Shown: positions 43,838 through 47,846 of the stretch, in pieces | Position numbering within the stretch: position 1 is the first letter of the stretch | Layout: each line of letters starts with the position of its first letter | NCBI RefSeq assembly: GCF_000383235.1 | Contig: NZ_KB910957.1 | Span: 1 to 48,812, forward strand | Length of the DNA stretch: 48,812 nucleotides | From: Bacillus sp. 123MFChir2 | GTDB lineage: Bacteria; Bacillota; Bacilli; Bacillales; Bacillaceae_G | Direction: 5' to 3' | The notes under the pieces: model-generated | Database searches by the model: none | What the model saw: the letters and a program-made list of their open reading frames with translations, nothing else | Told to the model about the DNA's origin: nothing | Translations under genes and position numbers: made by a program

Positions 43838-43996
43838 TTAATTACACATCATCGGAGTGCTAACTCTCTTACATACATTACCTTTGCAATCTAAATATAC
43901 ATCATAAACGCGTCCTCTACTATCGCACTCATAATGAGACCTTACACATGCGCAGCCTGCTGCTTTATTACTTATTCCTAATATTTTCTTTAACAT
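43838..43996 (-). CDS. Six-cysteine defensin-like peptide B (bacteriocin candidate)
   Basis: 52 residues: MLKKILGISNKAAG, then a Cys-rich core from Cys15. Cysteines are at 15, 17, 24, 37, 42 and 51 (CxC-x6-C-x12-C-x4-C-x8-C). The core has GRVYDVY before Cys37. GAGAGG precedes the ATG by nine bases. Peptide A, encoded 47 bp upstream, has the same pattern and the same MLK(K/R)(I/F)LGI start. The short, non-Sec N-terminus may be a leader or part of the active peptide. The spacing and VY-rich core recall laterosporulin, a defensin-like bacteriocin with six cysteines, as I remember it. Redox and export genes lie upstream. Confidence 0.75.
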   Translation of the reverse strand: MLKKILGISNKAAGCACVRSHYECDSRGRVYDVYLDCKGNVCKRVSTPMMCN

Positions 43997-44043
43997 TTTA
44001 ATCATCCTCTCATTAAAAAATATTAAAACAATTATCTAACAGA

Positions 44044-44199
44044 TTAGCATGGATATTTTGTACGAGTAATCCCACATAACTCATTTACTGAACAATCATA
44101 ATAGCGATATACTTCTCTTCCACCCTCACAAGAATACCTTTCAACAGTACAAGAGCATATAGCTCTTAATGGTGCTATACCTAGAAATCTCTTTAACAT
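44044..44199 (-). CDS. Six-cysteine defensin-like peptide A (bacteriocin candidate)
   Basis: 51 residues: MLKRFLGIAPLRAI, then a Cys-rich, Tyr/Arg-rich core. Cysteines are at 15, 17, 24, 36, 42 and 51, almost exactly as in peptide B, and GREVYRYYDC corresponds to GRVYDVYLDC of B. AGGAGG sits seven bases before ATG 44199; a longer frame upstream has no site. It has its own strong promoter (44240-44268), so the peptides can be made in excess of the biosynthetic proteins. It probably needs three disulfides, which the adjacent MauE and thioredoxin-like proteins could install. It was probably missed in automatic annotation because of size. Confidence 0.78.
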   Translation of the reverse strand: MLKRFLGIAPLRAICSCTVERYSCEGGREVYRYYDCSVNELCGITRTKYPC

Positions 44200-44239
44200 T
44201 TTATCCCTCCTATTACATTTAATTACAAATAATAACTTT

Positions 44240-44268
44240 AGGATACATTCATTTTCCGCAAGTGTCAA
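44240..44268 (-). promoter_or_regulatory. Promoter of the peptide genes
   Basis: TTGACA (44268-44263), 17 nt, TATCCT (44245-44240) on the minus strand. A small palindrome (TTCTGAATAATCAGAA, 44274-44289) lies just upstream of the -35 and may bind a regulator. Confidence 0.7.
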
Positions 44269-44313
44269 TATGGTTCTGAATAATCAGAAAAAAATTAGTA
44301 GATTTGTTCTATA

Positions 44314-44871: not shown

Positions 44872-44904
44872 TTTTTAAGTCCTCTCCTGATAATTTGAAC
44901 TAAC

Positions 44905-45477
44905 TCAATTTTTTGTTAAACGGTCTATTCGTAAGGAAATATTATATAGTTGTATCATATTTATTCCTATTAATATAACTATCCAACTAGTAAATACTAA
45001 AGTAAAGTACTGAAAGTTAAAGATATCAAACACAAATTGCTTAGTTTTTAATAAATGATCTAAGCTCCCTAATGATAACGGATACATTAATAAGATTACT
45101 GAAACAGCACCAATACAAAGATTCCTAACAACTAACATCCATGATAATTTATGATTTCCTAATACACCACCACATCCACAAGATATTTCCTTTCTTCCTC
45201 TAAGTAAGTTCACTAAAATAGCAACAGAGTATACAAGAAGTAGTAGTGCTGCACAAATTAGAGTAAATGTATGAAACAATCCTATAAACAAACATATACT
45301 TATAAATATTTCTGCAAAAATTTCTATAATAGTAAATAACCTAATTTGATTCTCAGGAATAATCCGATATTCTTTTATAATCAATTGATGGATACTAAAT
45401 TTTTTAATTTTATCAATGCCGGTACTAATAAATAAAGTCGCAAGTCCAATTTTCATCATAAAAAACAAAGAAATCAT
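44905..45477 (-). CDS. MauE/DoxX-like redox membrane protein
   Basis: 190 residues with four to five hydrophobic helices (about 2-22, 45-66, 70-92, 110-132 and 155-178). FISTGIDKIKKFS in the first part and SCGCGGVLG after the third helix match the MauE family, whose loop cysteines exchange disulfides with a MauD-type partner. In methylotrophs MauE/MauD are needed to fold the disulfide-rich methylamine dehydrogenase small subunit. No such enzyme is here, and the only disulfide-rich products nearby are the two peptides. GAGGTG lies before the ATG. Confidence 0.85.
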   Translation of the reverse strand: MISLFFMMKIGLATLFISTGIDKIKKFSIHQLIIKEYRIIPENQIRLFTIIEIFAEIFISICLFIGLFHTFTLICAALLLLVYSVAILVNLLRGRKEISCGCGGVLGNHKLSWMLVVRNLCIGAVSVILLMYPLSLGSLDHLLKTKQFVFDIFNFQYFTLVFTSWIVILIGINMIQLYNISLRIDRLTKN

Positions 45478-45496
45478 TTTTATTCACCTCGTATTT

Positions 45497-46027
45497 TTAA
45501 ATAATTTTATCCTCCTTAATATTTCTTATCTTTTCATAATGTGAAAATATTCCCTTATAATACGAATTTTGATATATTATTGTTCCTTTATTATCAATTA
45601 GAGTGAATGTTGGAAAAGTGTCTATATCTAAGGAAGTAAAAAAGCTCTCATTTTCCTGTATCTTTACAATATCTTTATAATCTGTGTTTCCTTTATTATC
45701 ATCTGGCAATTCAAATATCTTTTCAATATTTATTAGAGGTATTTTATAGATACCGTTATTCTCCTCAATCATTTCTATTAATGCTTGTTTACAAAAAGGA
45801 CATGTAGTTGACGTAAATGCAACTATAGTTATATCTTCAAAATTCAAATGGTTTTCTAAGAAATATCTTTTCATATTTACTCCGATAAGATTATTATCCT
45901 TAAAGCTAAAATTCCCACTCTCTATTAATGGAAGTAAATCTATTTCCTTTTTGAAAAAATGTATCTGCCCCAATACAATGCACAATAGTAATAACCAAAC
46001 ACAAATAAACATTAAAAGTATCGACAT
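45497..46027 (-). CDS. Membrane-tethered thioredoxin-like protein, CPFC
   Basis: About 176 residues. The N-terminal helix (residues 2-21) is followed by a thioredoxin fold: FTSTTCPFCKQAL (CPFC active site) and cis-proline in IDTFPTFTLID. This is the second redoxin of the cluster, with a more DsbA/thioredoxin-like active site than the CSSC protein, so the two may work as an oxidant/reductant pair. I chose ATG 46027 because GGGGG lies six bases ahead; the adjacent ATG at 46030 is almost as good. It starts 22 bp after the ABC gene stop. Confidence 0.82.
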   Translation of the reverse strand: MSILLMFICVWLLLLCIVLGQIHFFKKEIDLLPLIESGNFSFKDNNLIGVNMKRYFLENHLNFEDITIVAFTSTTCPFCKQALIEMIEENNGIYKIPLINIEKIFELPDDNKGNTDYKDIVKIQENESFFTSLDIDTFPTFTLIDNKGTIIYQNSYYKGIFSHYEKIRNIKEDKII

Positions 46028-46049
46028 CATACTCCCCCTTTTTAAATAT

Positions 46050-47846
46050 TTAAAGACTACTCTTTGCCAATTCTTTATGTTCCATATACCATTTTGATTG
46101 AGAAACAAATAACTCTTTATATATACCCTCTAAATGCAAGAGTTCCTGATGTGTCCCTCGTTCAGCAATTCTTCCTCGTTCCAGTACAATAATTTCATCA
46201 GCTAACCATGCTGCCCCAAGACGATGAGTAATAAATATGACAGCTTTATCACTGGAATATTGAAAAAATCCCTCCATAATTTCCACTTCCGATTTTGGAT
46301 CAAGGGCAGATGTTGGTTCATCCAATACTATAAGATCACACTCTCTATATAAACATCTAGCTATCGCAATCTTTTGCCATTGGCCTCCTGAAAGTTCGTT
46401 TCCTCCATCGAAAAATCTTCCCAATCTTGAATCATATTGATTAGGTAGATTTTTAATGTAGTTTTCTAACCCAACCCTTTTTATTACTTCTTTTAATTTT
46501 TCTGTATCGGCTAAACTCTCTAGATTTCCAAAACCTATATTTTCTCTTACCGTAAATTCAAAACGATTAAAATCTTGAAATAGAACGGAAATTTTTTTGA
46601 AATATTTGTTCAAATCTATCTTATTTAAAGGCGTACCGTTCACATGTATCATAGATGAATCTGTTTCATATAAACCTGTTAAACATTTTATTAAAGTGGT
46701 CTTTCCTGAGCCATTTTCTCCAATAATTGCAATCTTTTTACCAGGCGTAATTTTTAAATTAATATCTTTCAATGTTTGTATATGTTGATTAGGATAGGTA
46801 AAACTTAGTTGTTGAACACTTATTTCTTGAATACTATGAATATCTTCTTTATCTTCTGCCTCATCAATTTCAGGTAAAGAGATAAAAGATGAGAACTCCT
46901 TAACATATAATAAATTCTCATAAATATTTGATATAGATCTAATTAGACTATTTAAACTGGCTTGGATGTTTTGGATAGCTTGTAAAACTGCCACTAATGA
47001 TCCTACTAACACTCTTCCTAATTTCATTAAGTATAGGAGAAAAACACTTGTTATCGCATATACCAACACCAGTATAATTTCTGACGCAAATAACCAAACA
47101 GTTTGTTTCTTTAATAAATTTATCTCCTCCAGATTATTTTCTTGATATTTTTGACGCCATTTTTTAATTAGAAAGTTTGTTATCTGAAATAAACGTAACT
47201 CTTTAACGCTCTCTCTTCTATATAACAGATTAGATATGTAATACATTTCTCTATTTACTGGCGTTAAATATCTCATTAATTCATATTTAGATGATCCGTT
47301 TTTTATTTCGATAATAAATAGTGGTATGATTCCAACAAATAATATAACTACCAATACCCAGTGAATATTTATTAAATAAACTAATATAGAGATTAGTGTT
47401 ATACATTCTTTTAACAGGTTAGAAGAACTTGTTACATTATTTACGATACGCTGATCAATACCACTAATCATCTGAAGTTTATTTTGGAATTCGGGATTTT
47501 CAAAATGTATGTATGCTAGCTTCTCCATTTTATTAAATGTGGTTTCTTTGATATGCAAACCAATCTTTTGATTAATATATTTATCATTAATAATGCTGAG
47601 ATGTTCCAAAATATATTGAAGTAGAAAGGTGGCCAATTGACACGCTAAATATACAAATACTTGTTCTAAGTTACCAGAATGATTTATAAATCTTGCTGCT
47701 TCATTTATTAAACGCTCAAAAAGAAAAATGTTAATAACGGGTATGAAACCTTCTATAACTCTAATAAACACTAAAAATATTAAATGATTTTTACATGACT
47801 TCCAAAAAATACGTGCAGAATAAAGAAATAATGACATATTATTCAA
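46050..47846 (-). CDS. ABC exporter (membrane-ATPase fusion) of the peptide cassette
   Basis: 598 residues. Six membrane helices (about 1-320) and a C-terminal ATPase with Walker A GENGSGKTTL, signature ELSGGQWQKIAIARCL, Walker B LIVLDEPTSALD and the switch histidine FITHRLG. The closest layout is NisT/LanT-type peptide exporters without a C39 peptidase domain, so any leader would need another protease or remain on the peptide. TTG 47846 is the likely start (AGGGGA eight bases ahead); ATG 47837 is the alternative. It is the first gene of the mauE/redoxin operon. Confidence 0.88.
   Translation of the reverse strand: MNNMSLFLYSARIFWKSCKNHLIFLVFIRVIEGFIPVINIFLFERLINEAARFINHSGNLEQVFVYLACQLATFLLQYILEHLSIINDKYINQKIGLHIKETTFNKMEKLAYIHFENPEFQNKLQMISGIDQRIVNNVTSSSNLLKECITLISILVYLINIHWVLVVILFVGIIPLFIIEIKNGSSKYELMRYLTPVNREMYYISNLLYRRESVKELRLFQITNFLIKKWRQKYQENNLEEINLLKKQTVWLFASEIILVLVYAITSVFLLYLMKLGRVLVGSLVAVLQAIQNIQASLNSLIRSISNIYENLLYVKEFSSFISLPEIDEAEDKEDIHSIQEISVQQLSFTYPNQHIQTLKDINLKITPGKKIAIIGENGSGKTTLIKCLTGLYETDSSMIHVNGTPLNKIDLNKYFKKISVLFQDFNRFEFTVRENIGFGNLESLADTEKLKEVIKRVGLENYIKNLPNQYDSRLGRFFDGGNELSGGQWQKIAIARCLYRECDLIVLDEPTSALDPKSEVEIMEGFFQYSSDKAVIFITHRLGAAWLADEIIVLERGRIAERGTHQELLHLEGIYKELFVSQSKWYMEHKELAKSSL

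Follow-up and report, generated by a model that had tools for sequence, protein, structure and literature searches.

What is made by an operon in which an exporter and three thiol-redox proteins are followed by two very small cysteine-rich peptides? The question is raised by positions 43838 to 47846 of contig NZ_KB910957.1 of Bacillus sp. 123MFChir2, within the stretch of 48,812 nucleotides (nt) analysed here and called the window. A first-pass annotation, made from the letters alone, had proposed a cassette for oxidatively folded, defensin-like bacteriocins. Our analysis indicates that the cassette is real and is a variant of the laterosporulin locus type with an orphan pair of leader-bearing peptides. 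It looks mobile and probably yields a pair of small, secreted peptides rich in disulfides, most likely bacteriocins, by means of an ATP-binding cassette (ABC) exporter and a disulfide relay formed by MauE and redoxins. The folding and export machinery is common to the window and the laterosporulin locus; it is laterosporulin alone that suggests, by analogy, an antibacterial function for the window peptides.

A minus-strand operon with two six-cysteine peptides

The six genes form a single minus-strand operon transcribed from 47846 to 43838 in the order ABC exporter, CPFC redoxin, MauE, CSSC MauD-like redoxin, peptide 2 and peptide 1 (Table 1), each preceded by a purine-rich stretch resembling a ribosome-binding site (by eye). 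The first-pass inventory, which had placed all of them on one strand, was recovered gene for gene and position for position. The ABC protein matches ABC_tran (1.1e-33, Pfam) and shows no match to the C39 peptidase at E ≤ 1, as had been supposed; it is thus not an exporter of the peptidase-containing ABC transporter (PCAT) type, which carries an N-terminal C39 domain. The membrane tethers of both redoxins were assigned by eye from N-terminal hydrophobicity.

Table 1. Features of the cassette and its borders (window positions; aa, amino acids; ORF, open reading frame)
Feature	Position	Strand	Basis or remark
ABC exporter of 598 aa starting at TTG, without C39 peptidase domain	46050..47846	-	Pfam; laterosporulin exporter clade
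Thioredoxin-fold protein 1, membrane-anchored, CPFC, 177 aa	45497..46030	-	Pfam Thioredoxin_2 1.3e-7
MauE membrane protein, SCGCGG, 190 aa	44905..45477	-	Pfam PF07291 E 3.7e-23
Redoxin 2, MauD-like, membrane-anchored, CSSC, 185 aa	44314..44871	-	NCBIfam MauD TIGR02661 7.3e-14, below cut-off
Peptide 2, 51 aa, six Cys; leader-like MLKRFLGIAPLRA then Cys-rich core	44044..44199	-	AGGAGGG precedes ATG 44199
Peptide 1, 52 aa, six Cys; leader-like MLKKILGISNKAA	43838..43996	-	alternative ATG at 44005
16-nt end remnant GGTTCTGGTGCAAAAA, left border of cassette	43569..43584	+	exact copy of 47944 end
Identical 16-nt end, right border, adjoins IS240-type transposase ORF	47944..47959	+	exact repeat
IS240-type transposase ORF, cut short	48006..48500	+	Pfam PF13610 6.7e-32

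The cysteines of peptide 2 occupy positions 15, 17, 24, 36, 42 and 51 and those of peptide 1, counted from the ATG at 43996, positions 15, 17, 24, 37, 42 and 51, which confirms the earlier count and corresponds to the pattern C-x-C-x6-C-x11/12-C-x4/5-C-x8-C. This second ATG is most likely the start of peptide 1, because the opening (MLKKILGI / MLKRFLGI) and the cysteine positions then equal those of peptide 2. The two peptides are 40% identical; with six hydrogens subtracted, their calculated average masses at full length are 5782.8 and 5882.8 Da. Among 200 dinucleotide shuffles of region 43301-48000, ORFs of 40-80 aa with at least six cysteines occurred at a mean of 0.005 per shuffle, one shuffle holding a single such ORF and none holding two. 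Five more exist elsewhere in the window, so that the cysteine count by itself is no proof; the leader profile derived from other loci (see below) is the stronger test.

The laterosporulin loci carry the same gene set

Laterosporulin is an antibacterial peptide (PMC3293901) with three disulfides (PMC6510442), which gives the folding-and-export reading an experimental anchor. With a homologue from PMC6510442 as query (it matches PDB 6LWY, 4OZK and 6LWZ), the gene was identified in 3 of the 39 genomes of one family, that of genome G250, which we infer to be Brevibacillaceae because laterosporulin occurs there. In all three loci a redoxin, an ABC protein, a second redoxin and MauE lie downstream on the same strand, with the motifs CRFC, CSFC or CNFC in the first redoxin, CSYC in the second and CSCFG in MauE. 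Pfam confirmed MauE at 8.3e-21 and detected no C39 domain in the one locus scanned (L081); the first redoxin of L081 had no Pfam match at 0.01, and our own redoxin profiles match in the three loci at about 1e-6 to 1e-7. The window likewise presents a C39-less ABC protein, MauE and two redoxins beside a small peptide. The dedicated export-plus-redox machine of the first-pass annotation is thus supported, the laterosporulin locus itself carrying the gene set. Its companion statement, that no named system has exactly this set, has to be amended: the set does stand beside laterosporulin, though no paper was found that says so. No mention of MauE and redoxins at the laterosporulin locus turned up in our literature search, outside which most subscription papers fell, and this helper set has apparently gone unremarked.

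The exporters of these loci share a clade with that of the window. The laterosporulin ABC ranks 1 of 87, 2 of 82 and 2 of 83 among the ABC matches of the respective genomes, behind the ABC of a sister cluster in the two second-place cases, and reaches about 365 bits, whereas the highest-scoring unrelated ABC reaches 259. In a midpoint-rooted tree of 44 ABC sequences, for which the program flags long branches, 37 system exporters, among them those of the window and of laterosporulin, group apart (100/100) from the remaining 7, which are other ABCs of the laterosporulin genomes. The window protein falls in a clade of seven (100/100), whose joining with the laterosporulin clade is tentative (89/97).

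Two of the three laterosporulin genomes carry the sister cluster, with the same genes and three tandem eight-cysteine peptides. These peptides are leaderless (L096 9506-10285; L097 9243-10017) and are relatives of laterosporulin by 0 to 14 of 1000 shuffles. Both kinds of Brevibacillus cluster also include a DUF6941-like protein (PF22091; L081 11997-12395, 5.5e-9; L096 10301-10705, 3.9e-4, below cut-off), which may serve in immunity or as a chaperone and is not represented in the window operon.

In the laterosporulin cluster published in 2012 (PMC3293901), 4 kb hold genes for a transcriptional regulator, a hypothetical protein and an ABC transporter, besides one listed as a dehydrogenase. In L081 the stretch that begins with the regulator measures 3951 bases if taken to where the second redoxin ends and 4481 if taken to where MauE ends. 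Going by these distances, the "dehydrogenase" would most simply be the MauD-like second redoxin, its name deriving from methylamine dehydrogenase.

Recurrence of the gene set

A plasmid search with MauE matched four records. Each of the three examined (two Priestia megaterium plasmids and one Exiguobacterium plasmid) carries an ABC-MauE pair, a redoxin and, near them, a small six-cysteine ORF. On one Priestia plasmid several TIR-domain protein genes follow the cassette (L001 9682-12492). A genome scan gave nine loci, two from Tumebacillus, one from Longirhabdus and six proteobacterial. A seven-row MauE profile (E ≤ 1e-20) applied to 398 genomes of the class Bacilli matched 25 of them at 32 places, L004 and L006 among them; in a wider sample of the phylum 2 of 398 genomes were positive, and in the family of G250, 13 of the 35 genomes shared with the Bacilli sample. 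A redoxin match is present at all 32 places and a matching ABC at 30 (truncated in L071, split into two ORFs in L057; none in L048 and L070). A cysteine-rich small ORF, usually with a short MxxLxKxLG-like leader, adjoins the MauE genes at 29 of the 32 places, a count made by eye with criteria derived from the very loci counted. Two or three tandem peptides occur at several places (L047, L050, L068, L069), and the number of cysteines in related peptides ranges from 4 to 8. Nine peptides from other loci gave no Pfam match at E ≤ 0.1 and a single weak NCBIfam match, far below cut-off.

The export-plus-redox set thus recurs beside cysteine-rich peptides across Bacilli, which supports the first-pass annotation on this point. 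The opposite case that it had named, in which MauE and redoxin genes mainly accompany another substrate, was not seen for close MauE homologues. The distant MauE loci L011 and L012 retain a 14-cysteine ORF, which we take to resemble MauA. C39 is absent from the Pfam matches (E ≤ 0.01) of four other system ABCs, that of laterosporulin included; with the window exporter also lacking this domain, C39 processing of the precursors was rejected.

Two further observations concern the distribution of these genes. Genome G162 contains four MauE clusters (L048, L049, L056, L058), each with different peptides. An ABC relative, 31.5% identical, is found in a Streptococcus phage record (MN270279.1, 45803-47518).

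Conserved leaders and variable cores

In most peptides the initial methionine precedes a short amphipathic segment that closes with a G[VI][ST]-like motif. From 15 leader groups, the group under test being omitted, we built a position matrix. Its best candidate lies near the cluster in 26 of the 35 loci (14.1 expected); it is the peptide chosen by eye in 20 loci, another nearby ORF in 6 and a distant ORF in 9. Trained without the window, the matrix places peptide 1 first and peptide 2 second among the 22 candidates of the 48.8 kb (14.5 and 8.8 bits; next 3.2). A conserved leader is combined with a variable core across loci, as in ribosomally synthesized and post-translationally modified peptides (RiPPs).

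Profile comparisons of thirteen core families were assessed against Cys-fixed shuffles, taking the best member per family. The leader-bearing YVPC, leaderless YVPC, L074, L072, L069 and L049 families interlink (0/200 shuffles in at least one direction), and laterosporulin links with the eight-cysteine peptides. Within one superfamily, leader-bearing (L055, L057, L059) and leaderless (L003, L068) peptides match at 17.4 bits (0/200 shuffles), indicating that the leader can be present or absent, gained or lost, in a single superfamily. The window pair links to no core family at 0/200; its best values are 4/200 to L049 and 9/200 to laterosporulin, and the L049 and L069 profiles against the pair give 10/200 and 11/200. 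Related loci carry 4, 6 and 8 cysteines at varied spacing, and the fixed spacing of the window peptides is not family-wide. These peptides represent an orphan core type within the searches made. On balance we lean towards the existence in Bacilli of one broad, unnamed class of ribosomal peptides defined by the shared ABC-MauE-redoxin machine rather than by a peptide fold. In such a class hypervariable cores of 4 to 8 cysteines would be fed to the machine by a short, exchangeable leader that some members of one peptide superfamily have and others lack, and laterosporulin would be merely the best-known member.

Sequence and predicted structure compared with laterosporulin

Neither peptide of the window matches the Laterosporulin family models (PF17861/NF033806) at E ≤ 1, and several observations weigh against the bacteriocin reading. 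When the two window peptides are compared with laterosporulin, 520 and 201 of 1000 Cys-fixed shuffles score as high or higher; in the opposite direction the counts are 20 and 21 of 1000 for two laterosporulins and 181 to 693 for three others, and the profile-profile probability is 0.2%. A profile of the pair run against the 398 genomes yielded chance-level matches only and no convincing relative. The model led by peptide 2 has a predicted local distance difference test score (pLDDT) of 58.9 and a strand layout different from that of the peptide 1 model. In a Foldseek search of the latter against 350,542 chains, laterosporulin3 ranks 3 of 446 without reaching significance or any customary threshold (E 0.64; template modelling score, TM, 0.41/0.43), and laterosporulin is not among the 45 VIA-align rows listed. 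To these are added the derivation of the by-eye criteria already mentioned, the three places of 32 with no visible peptide (L064, and L070 and L071, which lie at contig ends), the candidates with only four cysteines, the fact that no immunity gene was recognised and the behaviour of the laterosporulin MauE, which is the only match in one genome and weaker than that of the sister cluster in two others.

The peptide 1 model (AlphaFold2, AF2) counts in favour of the reading, as does the third rank of laterosporulin3. It exhibits three strands, the blocks of residues 21-50 having a mean pLDDT of 91-93, whereas the leader is disordered; it is tentative because its alignment has two rows only. Direct homology of the window peptides with laterosporulin was rejected, nothing beyond the cysteines being found by the Cys-fixed shuffles or the profile-profile comparison. 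One element of the first-pass annotation goes unsupported here, "defensin-like", given the missing sequence link to laterosporulin and the weak fold match, and the CxC-x6-C-x11,12-C spacing proposed as a search profile is limited to the window pair.

Proposed mechanism and alternative functions

The leader, recognisable as a conserved amphipathic motif of about 13 residues, may direct both precursors to the peptidase-free ABC exporter. Outside the membrane, MauE and the two anchored thioredoxin-fold proteins would constitute an electron relay, by comparison with MauE/MauD and the thioredoxin families. This relay would install and correct three disulfides per peptide, the redoxins being recharged through MauE. 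If the leader is trimmed at all, a host protease would be responsible, because the exporter lacks a C39 domain and some relatives are leaderless.

The same export and folding could also deliver disulfide-rich signalling or developmental peptides to another target. The lack of a recognised dedicated immunity gene and the twin and triplet peptide copies would suit signals as well. However, the one such locus whose product is known from the literature consulted, that of laterosporulin, yields an antibacterial (PMC3293901), the cores vary behind a common leader as in bacteriocins, and Pfam identifies neither a receptor nor a kinase in the operon's six proteins. We therefore consider signalling unlikely. 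A role in metal binding is very improbable: here the cysteine-rich peptides would bind copper or zinc, MauE/DoxX and the redoxins maintaining the export or sensing of the metal, on the pattern of HvfX-type copper RiPP loci. Small cysteine-rich ORFs would fit this role and MauE does match the HvfX model weakly at 0.0041, but that score is far below cut-off, against 3.7e-23 for the MauE model, and led us to reject an HvfX-type metal-binding locus; moreover, no metal transporter or MNIO enzyme is found among the six operon proteins by Pfam, and laterosporulin, with the same gene set, has three disulfides (PMC6510442). A role of the ABC-MauE-redoxin genes in general thiol homeostasis or for another protein, with the small ORFs as bystanders, is hardly credible: the ABC fold is generic and CydDC-like ABC models (NCBIfam) also match the window exporter, but peptide candidates accompany these genes at 29 of the 32 places as judged by eye, and the held-out leader profile favours an ORF by the cluster well above expectation, although 6 of those 26 are not the by-eye peptide.

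Cassette borders and other genes of the window

The cassette is bordered by two 16-nt ends in the same orientation (0.04 expected by chance at up to 2 mismatches) and therefore occupies the space between ends of seemingly one insertion-sequence type. The adjoining IS240-type transposase ORF belongs to the IS6 family. GC content per 1-kb step is 26-31% at 43000-48000 against 33-38% at 38000-43000. A resolvase and a PD-(D/E)XK transposase lie farther left.

Elsewhere in the window, the minus strand carries a second bacteriocin locus (24400-27970) with a lactococcin 972-type gene (PF09683, 5.6e-5), a 717-aa DUF1430/FtsX membrane protein and an ABC ATPase ORF. It also encodes a Peptidase M60 (enhancin-like) protein at 21704-23095 (PF13402, 5.3e-52) and, at 31034-31801, a 255-aa protein with a signal-like N-terminus and no Pfam match at 0.001.

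Significance

What makes the cassette interesting is that it connects a bacteriocin of known structure with a recurrent folding machine that has apparently gone unrecognised. No product was obtained from cloned laterosporulin clusters in B. subtilis 168 or L. lactis, and other host factors were suspected; according to the same source the 4 kb clone of the 2012 authors had failed too, and the 2019 clones were 6.7 kb EcoRI fragments whose failure was interpreted as absent expression (PMC6510442). We estimate that a clone ending before MauE would match a region of 4 kb in which four genes accompany the peptide. The 6.7 kb clones may hold MauE and their failure was read as non-expression, so that loss of MauE cannot account for all failures. 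A need for MauE and the redoxins in folding, if true, is directly testable in a laterosporulin producer. The ABC-MauE-redoxin neighbourhood also provides a handle on peptides too short or too variable for family models.

Comparison with known systems

Actifensin of Actinomyces is a disulfide-rich antibacterial with a leader, several copies and ABC genes (PMC6989792), a set that resembles the one proposed for the window. It differs by its cysteine motif C-X5-12-C-X3-C-X9-10-C-X4-5-C-X-C and a helix (PMC6989792), and the word thioredoxin is absent from the main text of that paper. A CS-alpha-beta defensin motif (actifensin-type C6) was rejected for the window peptides, whose cysteine pattern differs and whose peptide 1 model has no helix. 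Methylamine dehydrogenase maturation likewise uses MauE and a MauD-like redoxin. Its substrate, however, is an enzyme subunit, whereas Pfam identifies no amine dehydrogenase subunit gene among the six operon proteins, which include an ABC exporter instead. A speculative role of MauE is disulfide formation (PMC7794033, citing van der Palen 1997).

The locus of bactofencin A (Ligilactobacillus salivarius) combines, as the window probably does, a disulfide-containing bacteriocin with a thioredoxin-domain protein thought to aid disulfide formation (PMC7616364). It has one such protein only, and the available text of PMC7616364 leaves MauE unmentioned and refers to laterosporulin10 for cytotoxicity only; in that of PMC9867215 laterosporulin and thioredoxin are mentioned separately. 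In Streptomyces, decRiPPter delineated three candidate RiPP families with mauE, one of them also with mauD, beside precursors with at least 8 cysteines each (PMC7794033). The association of mauE, and in one family mauD, with a cysteine-rich precursor is that of the window, but the phylum and the cysteine number differ, and the available text of PMC7794033 names no product and does not mention laterosporulin.

The laterosporulin locus of Brevibacillus, which encodes a class IId defensin-like bacteriocin, differs from the window by its peptide, which has no leader beyond the first residues, whereas the window peptides have a leader, are paired, come last in the operon and show no detectable sequence homology to it. 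It shares with the window a small six-cysteine peptide, a same-strand set of thioredoxin-fold protein, ABC protein without C39, second thioredoxin-fold protein and MauE, and an exporter of one clade.

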